Source: Bdellovibrionales bacterium (GTDB lineage: Bacteria; Myxococcota; XYA12-FULL-58-9; SYDY01). From it: a stretch of DNA of 36,816 bases. Each line of letters begins with the position of its first letter. Position 1 is the stretch's first letter. The position numbers and the translations under genes were made by a program. Below are positions 5,214-36,691 of this stretch, piece after piece. The notes beneath the pieces were generated by a model that saw nothing but the letters and a program-made list of their open reading frames with translations, was not told the DNA's origin and made no database searches. The DNA lies in contig SYDY01000021.1 in assembly GCA_005801425.1 (NCBI GenBank), forward strand, positions 1 to 36,816, written 5' to 3'.

Positions 5214-6209
5214 ATGCGCAATTATCTTATTGGTTTGGCATGTGTGGCCGTGTTGGGCTGTTCCACCGGAGCCACCAAAAATGTGGTGGCAAAATTGGAT
5301 GGCGAATCTATCCAAATCAAAGAATTGGATGCCTTTCTTAAAAATGAGCTGCGTGAATTGCGGGATGAAGAAACCCGCATGCGAAGGCAGGGGCTTGAGC
5401 AGCTGATCAATGAGCGTTTGGTCACGAAGGCGGCCAAAAAAGAATCGTTGACCAATGAAGCCTATCTTAAAAAATACATCGAAGACACGGTGCCTAAACC
5501 TGATGCAGCAACCATCGATAGCTTCTTTAAACAGCATCAAGCGGAGCTTCCGAAGGGCGCAAAAATTGAAGATTATCGTGAACAAATTACATCATTTTTA
5601 AGCCGTGATGCCTATGTGGCCAAGGCCCGTGAAATGTATCAATCGCTTCGTAGCAAAGCGAAAATCGAAGTCCTGTTACAAGATCCACCGCGTGAACGCG
5701 TGAAACTGGAAGCGGTAGGGCCTTCGGAAGGTCCCGAAGCTGCTGCGGTGACCATGGTGATCTTCTCTGATTTTGAATGCCCTTTTTGTGGACGCGCCGT
5801 GGGTCTCGTGAAAAAATTGCGCGCAGCCTATCCTGACCGTTTGCGTGTGGTGTTTCGCCAATTTCCTTTGGAGTCCCATAAGCATGCCGAGGATGCCGCG
5901 ATGGCGTCGCTTTGTGCCAACGAACAAAAAATGTTTTGGGATTACCATGATTTGATGTTTTCGAATCAGGGCGATCTTTCCCGTGAAAAATTGGTAGGAC
6001 ACGCCACTGGCTTGGGGATGGATACCGAAAAATTTAGCACATGTTTGACATCGGGCAAGTACCGGGAACAAGTCCAAAAAGATCGCAAAGCAGGGATGGA
6101 TATTGGCATATCAGGCACGCCAGCGTTTGTGATCAACGGAATGCTCATGCAAGGCATGGAACCTTACGAGTCTTTTGTTAAGCTGATTGATAGCGAATTG
6201 CCGAAGTAA
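5214..6209 (+). CDS. Lipoprotein with SurA-N-like helical region and DsbA-like thioredoxin domain
   Basis: Predicted 331-residue periplasm-facing lipoprotein with thiol-disulfide chemistry. A signal peptide ends in lipobox VLGC (Cys16). Residues ~25-155 are charged and helical (VVAKLDGESIQIKELDAFLK, RRQGLEQLINERLV) and look like the N-terminal chaperone region of SurA/PpiC-type proteins. Residues ~175-328 are a DsbA/thioredoxin_4 fold: VIFSDFECPFC with catalytic CPFC at 189-192, FRQFPLESHKHA, and the cis-Pro loop GISGTPAFVINGM (Pro303). This two-part arrangement is known in deltaproteobacterial DsbA-like proteins. The role is probably oxidation or isomerisation of envelope proteins with built-in substrate binding. 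The start has no clear Shine-Dalgarno sequence but is fixed by the signal peptide. It is divergent from pepA with about 90 bases between the chosen starts. Confidence 0.88.
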   Translation: MRNYLIGLACVAVLGCSTGATKNVVAKLDGESIQIKELDAFLKNELRELRDEETRMRRQGLEQLINERLVTKAAKKESLTNEAYLKKYIEDTVPKPDAATIDSFFKQHQAELPKGAKIEDYREQITSFLSRDAYVAKAREMYQSLRSKAKIEVLLQDPPRERVKLEAVGPSEGPEAAAVTMVIFSDFECPFCGRAVGLVKKLRAAYPDRLRVVFRQFPLESHKHAEDAAMASLCANEQKMFWDYHDLMFSNQGDLSREKLVGHATGLGMDTEKFSTCLTSGKYREQVQKDRKAGMDIGISGTPAFVINGMLMQGMEPYESFVKLIDSELPK

Positions 6210-6246
6210 TTTTTCTTTGTTCGACCCATTGTGTAATATCGCCCAG

Positions 6247-6993
6247 ATGAAAAAAATTCCGCTGCTGTGTTGTCTTGTGTGGATGATGGGTTGTGGTGCT
6301 AACGATTCCACGGAAGCATGCCCCGTGAACTCCCTTAAAACGGAGGCAGGTGTTTGCGGATGTGATGTCGCAGACACCGATAGCGATTCTGATGGCACAC
6401 CCGATTGTACCGATGCATGCGACACTGATGACAACAAAATAGCCGTTGGCGCTTGCGGATGTGGTGTCGCAGACACCGATAGCGATTCTGATGGCACACC
6501 CGATTGCAATGAAACCTGTGATAGTGATCCCCTTAAGACAGCTGCGGGTGTTTGCGGGTGCGGTGTTGCGGATACGGATAGCGATTCTGATGGCACACCC
6601 AATTGCAATGATGGTTGCCCTAATAACAATCCCAAAATAACTGCGGGTGTTTGCGGATGCGGGACAGCAGATACGGATACCGATGATGATGGCACGCCTG
6701 ATTGCAATGATGCATGCGACAATGATCCCCTCAAAATAGCTGCAGGCGATTGCGGATGTGGCATACCAGAAGCTGCGGTGACCACCAATGTTTCTTACGC
6801 GACCCATATTTGGCCGATGGTGCAGATAAAATGTTTATCGTGTCACAACGGACAAATAAAAACAGCGTTTACTGCAAGTGAGCCTGATTCTAATCGAAAA
6901 GCGAATATGAAAACGCGTGTGAGTACTGGCGATATGCCACGAACGGGCACGCTCTGCGAAACGGCAAAGACGACAATTAGCAACTGGGAATAG
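6247..6993 (+). CDS. Lipoprotein with thrombospondin-type-3-like repeats and a C-terminal cytochrome c motif
   Basis: Predicted 248-residue lipoprotein. The ATG at 6247 gives a signal peptide with lipobox MMGC (Cys16). Residues ~25-172 carry about five Asp/Cys-rich units of 33 residues (D.DSDSDGTPDCNDACD.DPLK.AAGVCGCG), resembling calcium-binding thrombospondin type 3 repeats with added cysteines. The last ~65 residues form a small domain, YATHIWPMVQIKCLSCHNG...STGDMPRTGTL...TISNWE. This has a CxxCH heme-attachment site (CLSCH, 196-200), a likely Met ligand in GDMPRTG (Met230) and the closing I..W helix, as in short monoheme cytochrome c domains of planctomycete and deltaproteobacterial surface proteins. 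It is probably anchored on the outer membrane and holds one covalent heme; an electron-transfer role is inferred from the motif only. It starts 37 bases after the DsbA-like gene, so the two may be co-transcribed. Confidence 0.82.
   Translation: MKKIPLLCCLVWMMGCGANDSTEACPVNSLKTEAGVCGCDVADTDSDSDGTPDCTDACDTDDNKIAVGACGCGVADTDSDSDGTPDCNETCDSDPLKTAAGVCGCGVADTDSDSDGTPNCNDGCPNNNPKITAGVCGCGTADTDTDDDGTPDCNDACDNDPLKIAAGDCGCGIPEAAVTTNVSYATHIWPMVQIKCLSCHNGQIKTAFTASEPDSNRKANMKTRVSTGDMPRTGTLCETAKTTISNWE
6366..6760 (+). repeat. 99-bp tandem coding repeat (four copies) in the heme lipoprotein gene
   Basis: The string gatagcgattctgatggcac begins at 6379, 6478 and 6577, and a diverged copy (gataccgatgatgatggcac) at 6676; the spacing is exactly 99 bp. 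The first three copies are nearly identical in DNA, so the array is young or kept uniform by recombination, and copy number may differ between strains. Confidence 0.88.
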
Positions 6994-7002
6994 TTATGGT
7001 AG

Positions 7003-7022
7003 GGGCGGTTCGCGAACCGCCC
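7003..7022. repeat. GTAGGGG-family palindrome, copy 1
   Basis: Perfect 20-bp palindrome GGGCGGTTCGCGAACCGCCC preceded by TAG, between the stop of the heme lipoprotein (6993) and the stop of the convergent racemase gene (7030). A member of a dispersed family in this window. It can form a hairpin between the converging genes but lacks a clear T-tract. Confidence 0.85.
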
Positions 7023-9681: not shown

Positions 9682-9701
9682 GGGCGGTTCGCGAACCGCC
9701 C
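9678..9701. repeat. GTAGGGG-family palindrome, copy 2, containing the mtgA stop codon
   Basis: GTAG followed by GGGCGGTTCGCGAACCGCCC (9682-9701), identical in its 20-bp core to the copy at 7003-7022. The TAG at 9679-9681 is the mtgA stop codon. Confidence 0.85.
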
Positions 9702-18164: not shown

Positions 18165-19106
18165 ATGATGTTAGAATGGCTCAAATATTATGTGGGAGGA
18201 CAGGCATCTCATAACATTTCTTCGACGACATCGTCGTCGGATGCCAGTACGGGTCGCAGGGTCAATCAGGTCGAGATGACTTCTTTCGTGCGCGGCACGG
18301 GAGACGTGGTGAGGCGGGAGCAGAACCCCCATCATACCCTGCATCCCCAGCCTTCTTCGTCTTCTTCGTCTTTTTCTTTGTCTTCTTCCTCTTCTTCCCC
18401 TTCTTTGCAGGCACCCCATGCGATGACGCGAGAGATACTCCCGCCATCCCCAGCCCCATCCGAGGGTTCATCATGGAGCCTTTCAGGATCTTGGCATCGT
18501 TTTCGCGAAAGTACGCGGACTCAAGCATGGCTGTGTGGACTTTCCATTGGGCTACCTGTGCTCGCCGGTGCAACAGCCATCGCGGCTTATTTTGCCAATA
18601 AATTTGCACCTGGACCAAGTCCTTCATGTGATCATTTTTATAGAGGTTGGTTTTTTGTGTGGCCTATCTACTCTCCTGGCGTGCGTGAGGCTTTTGGGGA
18701 TGTTCACTCATCGCAGGATGACTACGCAAATTCAGAGGCGGGTATGGACGCGCTCAAAGAATTGATTGGGTGTCGCTTGCATGAAGTCGGTTATGAAGAG
18801 GCTGGCCAGTGGGCAAGCATGAGCGTCGTAAATTTTTGTCATGAGGCTTTAAAAGCCATTTGGACCGATGGGTGCGGCGATGTCATTGCCAAGAATAGCA
18901 CCGCTGGAACGGAATATTTTTGTCGCGGTGGCTATCCTGGTGACTACAGATGTCCTCGTGATGTCTTGGGGTATTCGGATCCTTTCAATGCGCTGATGTG
19001 GCTCGCGATTGGTTTGGGTGTTGTGAGCGTTGGCGTATGGGGCTTGGGGCTTGCAACAGCATGCTCAGGGAAGAAAAAAAGCAATGCTGCTAACGGTGAG
19101 GCATAA
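18165..19106 (+). CDS. Unrecognised Ser-rich two-TM protein with Cys-containing external domain
   Basis: I do not recognise this 313-residue protein. The start is the ATG at 18165 with CGGAG four bases upstream; the frame is open further up, but there it runs antisense to dnaE. The first ~110 residues are low-complexity: SSTTSSSDAS, then a serine run encoded by a TCT/TCG tract (18351-18407) and a Pro/Ser stretch. Two hydrophobic segments follow, GLSIGLPVLAGATAIAAYF (~135) and ALMWLAIGLGVVSVGVWGLGLATA (~280). Between them lies a ~125-residue domain with about seven cysteines (CDHFYRGW, GCRLHEVGYEE, FCHEALKAI, DGCGDV, YFCRGG, RCPRDV) that could form disulfides on the periplasmic side. The tail is short and basic (SGKKKSNAANGEA). 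It could be an envelope scaffold or sensor; nothing fixes a function. Confidence 0.7.
   Translation: MMLEWLKYYVGGQASHNISSTTSSSDASTGRRVNQVEMTSFVRGTGDVVRREQNPHHTLHPQPSSSSSSFSLSSSSSSPSLQAPHAMTREILPPSPAPSEGSSWSLSGSWHRFRESTRTQAWLCGLSIGLPVLAGATAIAAYFANKFAPGPSPSCDHFYRGWFFVWPIYSPGVREAFGDVHSSQDDYANSEAGMDALKELIGCRLHEVGYEEAGQWASMSVVNFCHEALKAIWTDGCGDVIAKNSTAGTEYFCRGGYPGDYRCPRDVLGYSDPFNALMWLAIGLGVVSVGVWGLGLATACSGKKKSNAANGEA
18351..18407 (+). repeat. Trinucleotide-like TCT/TCG tract encoding a poly-Ser region
   Basis: A 57-base pyrimidine-rich run of mainly TCT, TCG, TCC and TTC triplets. Because the unit is three bases, slippage would change the number of serines without breaking the frame. On the minus strand it is a purine tract. 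Confidence 0.7.
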
Positions 19107-31661: not shown

Positions 31662-32864
31662 ATGACATTTTACAAGTACCAAGCACAAACAAAACTCGGT
31701 GATGTACAAAAGGGTGAGATCGAGGCGCCTGATGTGGATGTTGCCAGAAATCATCTGGAAATACAGGGTTTTGTTCATGTAAAAATTAGGCGTGATTGGG
31801 CAAAAATTGAACTCAAGTTTCCAGGCTCAGAGAGTGTCCCTACGCGCGAGATGATGATTTTTACCCGTCAATTTGCAACCATGATTGATGCAGGTTTACC
31901 GATTGTCCAGTGTTTGGATATGCTTGGGGGTAAGAGCACCCATCCGGCACTCGCAAAAACCATTCGCGGTGTGAAGTCTAGTGTTGAAAGTGGGAAGACG
32001 CTTGCTGAGTCGATGTCTGCGTTCCCGAACGTGTTTGATAAACTTTTTTGCAATTTGATTTCGGCAGGAGAGTTGGGCGGTGTTCTTGATACGGTGTTGA
32101 ATCGACTGGCTGCTTATATTGAACGCGAAAGTAAATTGCGCAAGCAGGCGACCAAAGCGGCATCCTATCCTTTGATGATGCTTGGTTTGTCGCTCACGAT
32201 TACTGCGGGACTTCTTTATTTCGTGGTACCGAAGCTTGCAGCAACGTTTAAGTCGATGGGCAAGGAGCTTCCTGGTCCTACGCAGCTTGTGATCGATATC
32301 AGCGATGCGGTGGCACATAACATAGTTGCCATTATTCTCGGTATTTTCGGACTCATTATGGGAATACGTTATATTTTGAGCACCAAAATGGGACGTCGTT
32401 TGGCCGATGAATTGTTGCTTGCGCTACCGTTGATAGGGCCTGTGGTTCAAAAAATAGCAGTGGCTCGTTTTACCCGCACCATGGGGACCATGTTGTCTTC
32501 GGGCGTCAATATTTTGGAAGCCTTGGACAATGTGGCATCTGGTGCAGGGAACACGGTGGTGGAAGAAGGCTTGCGTTATGTGCGTACCAAGCTCAGTGAA
32601 GGAAAAACCCTCGCCGAACCCCTGGGAGAACTGAAAGTTTTTCCGCCGATGGTGGTACAAATGATTGCGGTAGGGGAGTCGAGCGGTTCTCTCGACATCA
32701 TGCTGAATAAGATTGCTGACTTTTATGACGACGAAGTGGAAAATGCCATTGGCAGCATGACTGCTGCTCTTGAACCGCTGATCATGGTGGTTGTGGCATG
32801 CATGGTGGGAAGTATTATCATTGCGATGTACCTCCCTATTTTCAATTTGGCGGGTGGTGTTTGA
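31662..32864 (+). CDS. pilC: Type IV pilus inner-membrane platform protein PilC
   Basis: Inner-membrane protein that couples the PilB/PilT motors to pilin assembly. It is 400 residues with two GspF/PilC domains. The N-terminal stretch is TFYKYQAQTKLGDVQKGEIEA; domain 1 is REMMIFTRQFATMIDAGLPIVQCLDML...FCNLISAGELGGVLDTVLNRLAAYIERE; domain 2 is ARFTRTMGTMLSSGVNILEALDNVA...MIAVGESSGSLDIMLNKIADFYDDEVE. There are three membrane spans (~175-195, ~215-240, ~370-395). AAAGGA eight bases before the ATG supports the start. No pilA, pilM-Q or pilS/pilR genes follow within the window, unlike the myxobacterial arrangement. Confidence 0.95.
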   Translation: MTFYKYQAQTKLGDVQKGEIEAPDVDVARNHLEIQGFVHVKIRRDWAKIELKFPGSESVPTREMMIFTRQFATMIDAGLPIVQCLDMLGGKSTHPALAKTIRGVKSSVESGKTLAESMSAFPNVFDKLFCNLISAGELGGVLDTVLNRLAAYIERESKLRKQATKAASYPLMMLGLSLTITAGLLYFVVPKLAATFKSMGKELPGPTQLVIDISDAVAHNIVAIILGIFGLIMGIRYILSTKMGRRLADELLLALPLIGPVVQKIAVARFTRTMGTMLSSGVNILEALDNVASGAGNTVVEEGLRYVRTKLSEGKTLAEPLGELKVFPPMVVQMIAVGESSGSLDIMLNKIADFYDDEVENAIGSMTAALEPLIMVVVACMVGSIIIAMYLPIFNLAGGV

Positions 32865-33002
32865 TTTCTTAAAAAGAAAAAAGGATACGATGTAATCTTT
32901 TGTAGCAACAACTATGTGCATGTGCCGATACACTTCATGCAGGGCTCGTCGGCTCTTGTAACAAAAATGGCGGCTCGTGGTATTTCCGGCGGGTTTTGTA
33001 TG

Positions 33003-33041
33003 GCGCGATGATCGTAGTTTTGATCATCGCGCTTTTTTTTT
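33003..33041 (+). terminator. Strong intrinsic terminator for the pilBTC transcript
   Basis: Perfect 11-bp stem GCGCGATGATC (33003-33013) and GATCATCGCGC (33022-33032) with an 8-base loop, followed at once by nine T residues (33033-33041) and more T beyond. The U-tract is only on the plus-strand side, so it ends rightward transcription, 138 bases after the pilC stop. Confidence 0.93.
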
Positions 33042-33063
33042 GTTTTTTTTCGACCATCTTTTG

Positions 33064-33086
33064 TAGGGGACGTTCGTGAACGGCCC
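33064..33086. repeat. GTAGGGG-family palindrome, degenerate copy
   Basis: TAGGGGACGTTCGTGAACGGCCC, following a T-rich stretch. The inner arms CGTTC/GAACG pair, while the outer pairing is broken, so this is a decayed member of the family. Confidence 0.65.
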
Positions 33087-33131
33087 TGCGGCATTTGAAT
33101 CATCATTGCAAAACGATTCGTCAACCTTATT

Positions 33132-33155
33132 AGGGCGGTTCTCGAACCGCCCCTA
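33132..33155. repeat. GTAGGGG-family palindrome, inverted orientation
   Basis: GGGCGGTT-CTCG-AACCGCCC (33133-33152) followed by CTAC and a T7 run. Read on the minus strand it is GTAGGGGCGGTT.... With the T-run it could act as a second rightward terminator; it also lies just past the stop of the convergent minus-strand gene at 33187. Confidence 0.75.
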
Positions 33156-33186
33156 CGTTTTTTTAAAAAAATCGATAGATGAAAAT

Positions 33187-34140
33187 TTAAGCAGCGATAA
33201 ACAAAACTTTGTAGGTATGAAGGCACGCATTGTGAAGGACAGAATGAATAGATCCCCCGAGGCCTTTGTGGGGTTTCGGAATGTCGCAGTCTTCGGTGGC
33301 ATCTACACAGGCAAGGATCCCTGTTACCATACAGGTGCTAACCCAGGCGACACAGCCGACCACGACAGGAACGATGCTGGCACCACATCGCGCCATCGAT
33401 AGCATTCGATCACAAAATGAAGGTTCGTTGCATGCTTGGCCATCGACCGCGGACCAGCATGCATCGCGTGCACTTAAATATGCACATGGAAGGATCCCAA
33501 AGACTGCAAATAAACCTGCGAAAAACGCACTGGGAATGACGCTTAACGCTGCAGTAACTATCGACAAACCATTTTCAAAAAATACGCGTACGCTTTCAAG
33601 GGGTTGTACCTCGCAGATGACAGCGACCGGTTCGCATGGACGATGATGGTGATCAATGGGAGGAGTGTCACATCGGTGATGATGCTGCTCAATAGCAGGG
33701 GGAGTATCACATCGGCGATGATGATGCACATGATGGTGAACAACATCGATCTTGATACGACACTCGACGGGTTTTTTTTGTTCTCCACAGCACGCGGGTG
33801 GTGGCAATTGGCCTGGTACAATGGCAGGGACATTGGGATCCGGGTACCACACAGCTGGAGGTTCTATTTCGCGTTGGCTTCGTGTCGTGAGTGATCGTGA
33901 ATGCGAATAACTGTTCGCAGGTGTGTTATATGCGTAGGGTTGCGCGCGCTGAGCATGGACCTGTTGTGGGTAGTACCCCTGGTTTTGTCCGCGCGGTTGA
34001 TCCGCATACCGATCATTTCCGAAGTATCTTTCTCTGATTACGCCTAAACTTGGTGCGTATTCTGCCCCATCGTGGAATTGTCTGGAGTCGTAGGGTTGCC
34101 TGTCTACACGACGGCTAGGCTCATAAACATATGCGCTCAT
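33187..34140 (-). CDS. Unrecognised membrane protein, tandem paralogue B, with His/Cys-rich N-terminal repeats
   Basis: I do not recognise this 317-residue protein. The start is the ATG at 34140 with GAGG eight bases upstream; the open frame continues to 34473 but has no sense there. Residues 1-115 are polar, Tyr/Arg/Gln/Pro-rich. Residues 134-170 hold three His clusters, each followed by a Cys (HHHVHHHRRC, QHHHRC, DHHHRPC), a likely metal-binding stretch. Residues 184-299 form the conserved cassette: FFENGLSIVTAALSVIPSA, a hydrophobic span to ~220, a loop with Cys228 and Cys237, SFCDRM, a second span (IVPVVVGCVAWVSTCMVTGILA), then CVDATEDC and GLGGSIH. The same cassette with five shared cysteines is in the next gene upstream on this strand. 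Role unknown. Confidence 0.72.
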   Translation of the reverse strand: MSAYVYEPSRRVDRQPYDSRQFHDGAEYAPSLGVIRERYFGNDRYADQPRGQNQGYYPQQVHAQRAQPYAYNTPANSYSHSRSLTTRSQREIEPPAVWYPDPNVPAIVPGQLPPPACCGEQKKPVECRIKIDVVHHHVHHHRRCDTPPAIEQHHHRCDTPPIDHHHRPCEPVAVICEVQPLESVRVFFENGLSIVTAALSVIPSAFFAGLFAVFGILPCAYLSARDACWSAVDGQACNEPSFCDRMLSMARCGASIVPVVVGCVAWVSTCMVTGILACVDATEDCDIPKPHKGLGGSIHSVLHNACLHTYKVLFIAA

Positions 34141-34259
34141 TGCAATACCTCGGGGGGTGGCGGCCCTTAGGTGTGCACCTGTCGTCGACTTAACACACGC
34201 ATTGTTTGTTAAAAAGAGAATATGCGATGGCAATGATACTGTTTTTTTTAATAGAAGAA

Positions 34260-35033
34260 TCAATCGTTGAGATACAACACATCGCATGTTGCGCGCATGG
34301 CGTAGCGTGAAATGCCATGAATGGATCCTTCGAGCCCTTCGCGCTCTGGAGGAATGGTGCAGTTTTCGCTGGTATCTGCGCATGCTGCGATCCCTATGGG
34401 GATGCAGGTGACGATCCAAGCGACATAACCCAGTACGCCAGGAACGAGGCATGCACCCCATTGTGCTGTGCATATCATACGGTCAGCAAATGAAGATTTC
34501 TCGCAATCATCGCCAGCCAATCGCATGCAGGCATCGATAGCGCTCCAAAAAAGGATGGGAATAAATGCCAATGACGCAAAAGACAACGCGATGACAGCGC
34601 TAGGAATGATGCTCACGGTTGCAACAACCATGGACACACCATTTTCAAAAAGAACACGCTCGCTTTTGCACTTGGGTCGCGTATGGCAGTGGTCTGTTGC
34701 TGCGGGATGATTTTCGCATGGCGCGGGTTGAATGGGAGTAGGCTGAATTGGCGTGGGTTGAATGGGTGTGAGTGGATCCGTTTTGGTCGCGGCATTGGCG
34801 CACGGTGGTGGTGGTTTTGGCCCTGGGGGAAGAGGGATCGCGGGAATAAGTGGTCGGGTGGTGGTGGTACGCCATCGTGAGAAATTGCTTGCATCTGGGT
34901 TGAGTTCAACTCTTGGGACCGGAGCCATGCGACGTATACTTGGATGTGGGTCATCGAGATTTGTTTCTAAATACTGAGAACGGGTGCGGTTATATCTTGC
35001 GGGCAAGACGCCGTAATGTTCGATCGCGCTCAT
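34260..35033 (-). CDS. Unrecognised membrane protein, tandem paralogue A
   Basis: A 257-residue paralogue of the preceding entry. The ATG at 35033 has GAGG eight bases upstream, and both genes begin ATGAGCGC. The N-terminal ~120 residues are unrelated to its partner: Arg/Pro-rich, then PLPPGPKPPPPC and three TPIQP-type repeats (90-105), with a short Cys/His stretch (CENHPAATDHCH). Residues 125-240 are the shared cassette: VLFENGVSMVVATVSIIPSA, hydrophobic span, Cys169 and Cys177, SFADRM, second span (LVPGVLGYVAWIVTCIPIGIAA), CADTSENC and GLEGSIHG. Conserved cysteines are 169, 177, 210, 218 and 225, matching 228, 237, 270, 278 and 285 of paralogue B. It lies 119 bases upstream of paralogue B and downstream of the ABC-2 genes on the same strand. 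Confidence 0.72.
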   Translation of the reverse strand: MSAIEHYGVLPARYNRTRSQYLETNLDDPHPSIRRMAPVPRVELNPDASNFSRWRTTTTRPLIPAIPLPPGPKPPPPCANAATKTDPLTPIQPTPIQPTPIQPAPCENHPAATDHCHTRPKCKSERVLFENGVSMVVATVSIIPSAVIALSFASLAFIPILFWSAIDACMRLAGDDCEKSSFADRMICTAQWGACLVPGVLGYVAWIVTCIPIGIAACADTSENCTIPPEREGLEGSIHGISRYAMRATCDVLYLND

Positions 35034-35168
35034 CGTAAAACCTCAAAAATGGGCGGTTCGAGGGTATGCATATATCGTCCGTGATTTACGAACGTTGCTT
35101 GAAAATTGGAATTATTACTAAGTCGAATTGTTTACTTCAATGAATCTGGTGAAGTCTGAATGTGTTTA

Positions 35169-35939
35169 TTATGAACGCTTTTTGTTGAACATAGATGATG
35201 CGAGGGTAACGGTTAATGCGGCGTAACATAATCCGTAAGCGACACCAAAAATAATTTTATTCGGCGAAAAAACCAATCGATTGGCGGCTTCGGTACGCAG
35301 GGACATGGATGCAAGATCGGGGATCGCATGGTAGAGCAATCTAAGTGCACGTGAGAGTATGGGTGCATGCGTTTGCATATTTTTAACACTGGTCAATACC
35401 TGATCTGAAAAATTGGCGGCAATGATCGTGCCTGCCGCAAAGGCGGACGCAAGCGCAGGTTTACTCATTGTATTGAACAAAACACTCAATCCTACGACCA
35501 CTGCCATTTCGCTCCAAACCATCGGAAATGTGACGATAAGTGCCATTGATGGGCTATGCCCCAATCCGAGGATGATACCTAGTGTTGAAAAAAGCATGAT
35601 GCTTGTGAGTATGATCATGACGCACCAAAATCCCAATGCGCGTCCGACCAAGTATGTGGATCGTGCGATGGGGCGAACAAGAATGGCATCCATGGTGCGA
35701 TGGCGAATATCCGCGGCCATCCGTGTGGTGACAAGCGCGATGGCAATCATACTTCCAACCAAACTTGCAGAGGTTGTGCCAATATCCGTGACGATCCGTA
35801 CACGTTGTCCCAATGCGATATTGGCCAGTCCCACACTCACAATAATGAGACCCACAGTAAACAGAAGTGTGAGAATAAGAACGCGACTTCGGATGCATTC
35901 TGTGATGGTTGCCTTTGCAATGGTATGAATGGCATTCAA
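35169..35939 (-). CDS. ABC-2 type transporter permease
   Basis: A 256-residue inner-membrane protein with about six hydrophobic segments. The N-terminus is IHTIAKATITECIRSRVLILTLLFTVGLIIVSVGLA, typical of ABC-2 permeases of the NosY/GldF-like type. A cytoplasmic loop (MAADIRHRTMDAILVRPIARSTYLVGRALGFW) resembles the ATPase-coupling region, with the usual R.T...L..PI.R..Y..G pattern. The last hydrophobic segment is near residues 228-250. Translation starts at TTG (35939), which shares bases with the ATPase stop codon (TTGA overlap), so the two are translationally coupled and form one exporter. The substrate is unknown. Confidence 0.85.
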   Translation of the reverse strand: MNAIHTIAKATITECIRSRVLILTLLFTVGLIIVSVGLANIALGQRVRIVTDIGTTSASLVGSMIAIALVTTRMAADIRHRTMDAILVRPIARSTYLVGRALGFWCVMIILTSIMLFSTLGIILGLGHSPSMALIVTFPMVWSEMAVVVGLSVLFNTMSKPALASAFAAGTIIAANFSDQVLTSVKNMQTHAPILSRALRLLYHAIPDLASMSLRTEAANRLVFSPNKIIFGVAYGLCYAALTVTLASSMFNKKRS

Positions 35940-36691
35940 GCAGCACCTCGCTTTGTTTTGCTTTGAACTTCTCGCACAAATAAATCTTCGATGGATGCGA
36001 ACGATGTAAGAATATTGTGAACGCTGTCCTCTTTATGAAGTTTTCCATCGATAATAATAGCGATGCGATCACAGAGCTCTTCCACGTCGGGAAGAATATG
36101 GGTTGAAAATAGGATGGTTTTTCCTCGTTGTTTCATCTTTCGCATGATGTGCCGTACATCGCTGCGTCCAATGGGATCGAGATCGCTTAAGGGTTCGTCA
36201 AGAATAAGCAAATCGGGATCGCCAATCAGAGCTTGGGCAAGTCCAAGCCGTTGAAGCATGCCTTTGCTATAATGACGCAGTTGGTCCCGTGCGGCATGTT
36301 CAATGCCTGTGTCATACAGCAATTCAGGGATGCGTGTGTCGAGGACGGTCTCGTCGATTTTTGCAAGTCGACCGTGTTTGCGCAAAATCTCTTGGCCGGT
36401 AAGATATTCGGGGAAATAGGGACGTTCAGGCATAAAACCAATGCGTTGACGAATTTTCATATCCCGATTGTTGCTTTCAAAAACTCTTATCGTGCCGCGG
36501 TCAATGCGAATCAAATCTAAAATAGCTTTGATGGTGGTTGTTTTCCCCGCGCCATTGGGACCTAAAAAACCTACGGTACTTCCACGCGCGATACGAAGAG
36601 ACATGCCTTGCAATATGGGATGACGTGGCTCCCAAAAATTATTGCGCACGCTTGTGTGTAGATCTTCAATATAGATTGCGTCGTCACTCAT
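35936..36691 (-). CDS. ABC transporter ATP-binding protein
   Basis: ATPase partner of the adjacent permease, 251 residues from the ATG at 36691. Walker A is GPNGAGKTTT (44-53), Q-loop region FMPERPYFPEYLT, signature YSKGMLQRLGLAQAL (141-155), Walker B LLILDEPLSDLDP (161-173), and switch His in LFSTHIL. This is the ABC-2 exporter (CcmA/GldA-like) class. The C-terminal ~40 residues (HKEDSVHNILTSFASIEDLFVREV) are the usual extension. The start is inside the last of three 40-bp tandem repeats, so the first codons (MSDDAIY) are also encoded, slightly altered, twice upstream. The longer frame from GTG 36727 lies wholly in that repeat and is less likely. It overlaps the permease gene by four bases. 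Confidence 0.93.
   Translation of the reverse strand: MSDDAIYIEDLHTSVRNNFWEPRHPILQGMSLRIARGSTVGFLGPNGAGKTTTIKAILDLIRIDRGTIRVFESNNRDMKIRQRIGFMPERPYFPEYLTGQEILRKHGRLAKIDETVLDTRIPELLYDTGIEHAARDQLRHYSKGMLQRLGLAQALIGDPDLLILDEPLSDLDPIGRSDVRHIMRKMKQRGKTILFSTHILPDVEELCDRIAIIIDGKLHKEDSVHNILTSFASIEDLFVREVQSKTKRGAA

Follow-up and report, generated by a model that had tools for sequence, protein, structure and literature searches.

CD225/dispanin proteins (IFITM-like, PF04505) have a cytosolic tail rich in proline and, behind it, two hydrophobic segments that contain cysteines, and small bacterial proteins of the TM2, DUF4190, and RDD types combine a disordered, Pro/Gln-rich cytoplasmic tail with a short membrane domain. 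In chlamydial Inc proteins, which are type III substrates, two hydrophobic spans are arranged as a hairpin with soluble ends; Inc-like effectors, too, may join a disordered tail to such a hairpin.

The two genes described here, A and B, encode proteins with the general tail-plus-two-spans layout of the dispanins, the low-complexity tail before a small membrane domain of the TM2/DUF4190/RDD types and the two-span, putatively hairpin arrangement with soluble ends of the Inc proteins. However, they differ from the dispanins in their motifs and long two-span cassette and in having no Pfam match, and from the TM2/DUF4190/RDD types in lacking a Pfam or NCBIfam match and in possessing an unusually cysteine-rich cassette with a conserved C-terminal motif. 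Whereas Inc proteins are substrates of type III secretion, the genome encoding A and B is without the FHIPEP export gate.

The pair lies next to type IV pilus genes. In M. xanthus, PilH and PilI are reported to be required for pilus biogenesis (PMC3724824, citing Wu et al. 1998; PMC6060248). The pilI and pilH genes directly upstream of B belong to a cluster of the Myxococcus-type pilGHI kind, whereas neither A nor B is PilG, PilH, PilI, PilS, PilR or a pilin; they are extra genes, present here only. The window, i.e., the whole stretch of 36,816 nucleotides that was analyzed, is contig 9 (C9) of a 3.38-Mb genome in 121 contigs; relatives in the order have genomes of 4.0–6.5 Mb, compared with 3.4 Mb in this organism.

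The gene pair and its conserved cassette

The two adjacent genes reported in an earlier sequence-only reading were both found as open reading frames on the minus strand (Table 1), with A placed after B across a gap of 119 bp. Both proteins begin with the residues MSA, and the near-identical start contexts that had been described are present in so far as GAGG precedes both genes, although the spacer to the ATG is seven bases in each case and not eight. The His/Cys-rich character attributed to A and the Pro-rich character and TPIQP repeats attributed to B are evident in the sequences. In codon use, A and B score lower than called genes do, as expected from their odd amino acid composition but also for young genes.

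Table 1. Positions of the gene pair, of the segments discussed in the text and of the neighboring genes (window coordinates).
Feature	Position	Strand	Remarks
Gene A	33187..34140	-	317 aa; tail 1-180 rich in His/Cys/Gln/Tyr/Pro; cassette about 181-317; paralogue of B
Gene B	34260..35033	-	257 aa; tail 1-121 Pro/Thr-rich with TPIQP repeats; cassette about 122-257
Conserved cassette of A	33190..33603	-	138 residues; alignment row 1
Conserved cassette of B	34263..34673	-	137 residues; alignment row 2
End of A tail, His/Cys-rich (HHHVHHHRRC..HHHRC..HHHRPC)	33613..33792	-	Residues 117-176, from sequence; partly collinear with B
TPIQP repeats of B	34719..34769	-	Residues 89-105, from sequence
A hydrophobic stretch 1, contains IPSA	33469..33570	-	Residues 191-224; hydropathy; long helix in low-confidence model
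A hydrophobic stretch 2	33301..33387	-	Residues about 246/252-280; hydropathy
B hydrophobic stretch 1	34524..34643	-	Residues 131-170; hydropathy
B hydrophobic stretch 2	34377..34460	-	Residues 192-219; hydropathy
GAGG, ribosome-binding-site-like	34148..34151	-	7 bases before A ATG; from sequence
GAGG, ribosome-binding-site-like	35041..35044	-	7 bases before B ATG; from sequence
pilI-like ABC-2 permease	35169..35939	-	135 bp upstream of B, same strand
pilH-like ABC ATPase	35936..36691	-	Part of the PilH-PilI pair
pilC	31662..32864	+	Converges on A
Palindrome GGGCGGTTCTCGAACCGCCC between pilC and A	33133..33152	.	Dispersed repeat; terminator-like for + strand

The C-terminal cassette common to both genes, to which a length of about 115 residues had been assigned, aligns over 137 residues with 45–46% amino acid identity. 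All of its described motifs (ENG(L/V)S, IPSA, SF.DRM, (D/N)C, and GL.GSIH) and the five cysteines, at cassette columns 49, 58, 91, 99, and 106, are exact in the alignment of A and B; the span "residues 125–240" previously given for A follows the numbering of B, the equivalent in A being about 184–299. The similarity of the two proteins, on which the earlier proposal depended, is clear: the cassettes score more than 20 SD above shuffles, whole-genome searches recovered A with B as the query at E = 2.7e-31 and B with A at 4.7e-27, and pairwise BLASTP gave 28% identity over 300 aa (E 1e-17). A and B are true paralogues, and the whole-genome searches returned no copies in this genome besides these two.

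Between the two cassettes, three methods gave dN values of 0.43–0.45 and dS values of 1.06–1.43 (dN/dS about 0.3–0.4); identity at the three codon positions is 0.64, 0.68, and 0.50, and of the 36 fourfold sites at which the encoded residue is identical, 13 keep the same base. A dN of about 0.44 against a dS of 1.1–1.4 indicates that the cassette has been held as a protein by purifying selection, and a dS above 1 that, by the measure of synonymous sites, the genes were duplicated long ago. Continued selection since such a duplication argues against the view that A and B are recently emerged, weakly functional genes with no specific role, located at a convergent intergenic junction; their orphan status, their low codon scores and the position of that junction beside a dispersed palindromic repeat would suit this origin, which is nonetheless unlikely.

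Membership of a family was accepted for scores above the curated cut-off or for E ≤ 0.001. The statement that no named family fits is borne out by searches of Pfam, NCBIfam, PHROGs, and PADLOC, in which neither protein matched a family (best E 0.19, all below the cut-off), and of PDB sequences, in which no profile match was significant (best E 0.51 and 0.94); no confident match of the cassette to a known family was found, and the CD225/dispanin profile (PF04505) matched neither A nor B up to E = 10. A cassette profile made from the two sequences detected no relative in seven other genomes of the order or in 195 genomes of the phylum, so that for the copy count per genome suggested by the earlier reading, no copy was found in these relatives, against two in the organism itself. 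Comparison of B with 58 relatives yielded no homologue, only weak matches over low-complexity tails, some of them in stop-containing frames or within a 999-aa ORF. No relative was obtained in a scan of genome contigs with A, in viral contigs with the cassette, in a plasmid collection with B or in a phage collection with A, nor did A, B or the cassette profile match any of roughly 115 loci, including named pil loci from about 80 genomes of the Geobacter or Myxococcus type. On these comparisons the pair forms an orphan family, restricted to one lineage, of two copies derived from an old tandem duplication, and its real range may be wider than two-sequence searches of genomes from other taxonomic families show.

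Both hydrophobic spans claimed for each protein are present by hydropathy. They are separated by about 25–30 residues that contain two conserved cysteines, corresponding to columns 49 and 58 of the cassette alignment, which could form a disulfide in what would be a periplasmic loop. Structure prediction, proposed earlier as a check, gave two AlphaFold models that both show a helical hairpin of two long helices as well as a helix at the C-terminus; the hairpin is not established by them, the mean pLDDT being only 46, below what a fold search would require. No positive-inside signal in A or B is strong enough to fix the topology, and the orientation adopted below is a putative one.

Elsewhere in the window, an orphan at 18168–19106 (+) displays a Ser/Pro-rich tail and two hydrophobic spans with about eight cysteines between and around them. 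It has no Pfam match, gave one weak tail match only in the genomes of the order, and could not be aligned with B. A low-complexity tail, two spans and many cysteines are combined only in A, B and this orphan within a 426-kb sample (12% of the genome), by which the layout is not abundant in the genome. The protein encoded at 6187–6993 (+) contains a CLSCH motif and repeats of D-rich DTDSDGTPDC/CGCG units that resemble thrombospondin type 3.

The type IV pilus neighborhood

In the window, pilB-pilT-pilC are convergent with A-B-pilI-pilH. Contig C16 begins with the C-terminal end of a PilG homologue followed by two pilin matches, on the strand that continues pilH of C9, and the two contigs are probably adjacent; from this adjacency, a run pilA-pilG-pilH-pilI-B-A would converge on pilC. 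The ABC-2 transporter that the sequence-only reading had noticed does adjoin the pair, but it is best read as PilI-PilH of the pilus cluster and gives no evidence for an exporter of A and B.

Records from Corallococcus and other Myxococcaceae show pilC-pilS-pilR in convergent orientation to pilI-pilH-pilG, and some of these records also include a pilin. Within the order, pilB-pilT-pilC (relative G002) or HEAT protein-rho-pilB-pilT-pilC (relative G003) precede a PilS-like kinase gene and a gene for a PilR-like regulator (assigned in G003 by domain matches), and in both genomes an ABC pair lies a few kilobases beyond these genes. The gene after pilI in relatives of the order is usually WecA/MraY-like (judged by sequence, not by family search) and otherwise belongs to other types; this place is thus variable, and A and B cannot be called pilus proteins from their location alone. 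Conserved linkage of A and B with pil genes across genomes was not found, the linkage occurring in this genome only. The 135-bp gap between pilI and B contains a weak promoter-like site, and shared transcription of pilI and B is thus only putative.

The pilS-pilR genes, which lie next to pilC in relatives, are missing here from the interval 32864–35169, and no PilS orthologue with its sensor half was found in this genome, which gave kinase-domain matches only. A dispersed intergenic palindromic repeat, GTAGGGGCGGTTC-GAACCGCCC, occurs in the window at 7003–7022, 9682–9701, and 33133–33152; its half-site GGGCGGTTC is found 40 times in 426 kb of this genome. A half-site lies at 35051, in the leader of B.

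The N-terminal tails

The N-terminal halves of the two proteins had been described as completely different. This is too strong, as full-length alignment reveals a weak collinear pattern (MSA, GV..RY, SR..TTR, P..PAI..PG..PPP.C, and C...PA...H...C.T.P) that adds three matched cysteines and one histidine to those of the cassette, giving eight cysteines and one tail histidine common to A and B. The similarity of the tails is marginal, with p values of 0.001–0.016 against full shuffles and of 0.13–0.23 when local composition is kept, and the DNA similarity of the N-terminal parts is not above shuffles. The two tails may well represent one low-complexity, probably disordered tail after rapid drift, and shuffle-tested alignments support no module swapping between them.

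The His/Cys clusters in the tail of A (HHHVHHHRRC, HHHRC, and HHHRPC), together with the cysteines and the histidine common to both proteins, would be consistent with metal- or redox-responsive membrane proteins that regulate or buffer zinc, copper or nickel by binding the metal through motifs in the tail and cysteines in the membrane. Such a function is distinctly unlikely for the pair, given that the long His runs of A are not conserved in B, that the alignment of the tails is marginal and that no known metal domain was matched in Pfam or NCBIfam.

The sequence-only reading interpreted the pair as surface or secreted proteins displaying different N-terminal modules, with the cassette as a membrane anchor and the tail directed outward. 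The high cysteine content, the differing composition of the tails and the adjoining ABC-2 transporter speak for this interpretation; it is nevertheless very unlikely, as the transporter is accounted for by the pilus cluster, the tails seem collinear by ancestry rather than swapped modules, and the presence of only two copies in the genome leaves no repertoire for cassette shuffling. Moreover, an N-terminal hydrophobic, signal-like segment is absent from both A and B by hydropathy, and nothing therefore supports export or display of the tail; a cytoplasmic tail would be the simpler reading.

A tentative model and its implications

The explanation preferred here, which is possible and held tentatively, is that A and B are inner-membrane hairpin anchors with a cytoplasmic tail that act as accessories of the envelope or of type IV pili. 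On the cytoplasmic side, each protein would have a long N-terminal tail, probably disordered, that is Pro-rich and contains Cys and His. Two helical stretches embedded in the membrane would follow, connected by a short loop in the periplasm with the two conserved cysteines; the short C-terminal segment, which is conserved (C.IP....GL.GSIH), would return to the cytoplasm and end there in a helix. The working part would be the conserved hairpin together with the C-terminus, probably an oligomerization or partner-binding site in the inner membrane, and the tail a loosely constrained tether or binding arm, with metal binding possible in A. An accessory role in the envelope or the pilus is the best guess because the pair closes the run pilA-pilG-pilH-pilI; the link to the pilus, like the disorder of the tails and any binding of metal, is putative. 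A far-fetched extension would be that a new two-gene family of cysteine-rich tailed hairpins joined the pilus locus of one deep lineage, perhaps replacing a task of PilS-PilR, with the tail sensing metal or redox state.

The FHIPEP export-gate protein is needed by flagella and type III secretion. No FHIPEP gene was found in this genome, compared with one or two in each of seven relatives of the order, an absence that suggests loss of both flagella and type III secretion. Least probable of all is that A and B are effector-like membrane proteins delivered as Inc-like hairpins to a host or prey cell: a disordered tail with a hydrophobic hairpin is shared with such effectors and an unrelated tailed two-span orphan (18168–19106) lies in the same window, but the lack of the export gate here, against its presence in seven of seven other genomes of the order, makes a type III effector role unlikely and the idea was dropped.

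A and B constitute a clean small case of an orphan family in which a duplication has already taken place, the membrane core having been conserved under selection and the tail having drifted; the pilus operon at whose end they lie is well studied. The pair alone does not change existing knowledge; if A and B were truly an accessory or a regulator of type IV pili, the finding would matter more. At present the pair has the appearance of an invention of this one species, located next to its type IV pilus genes.
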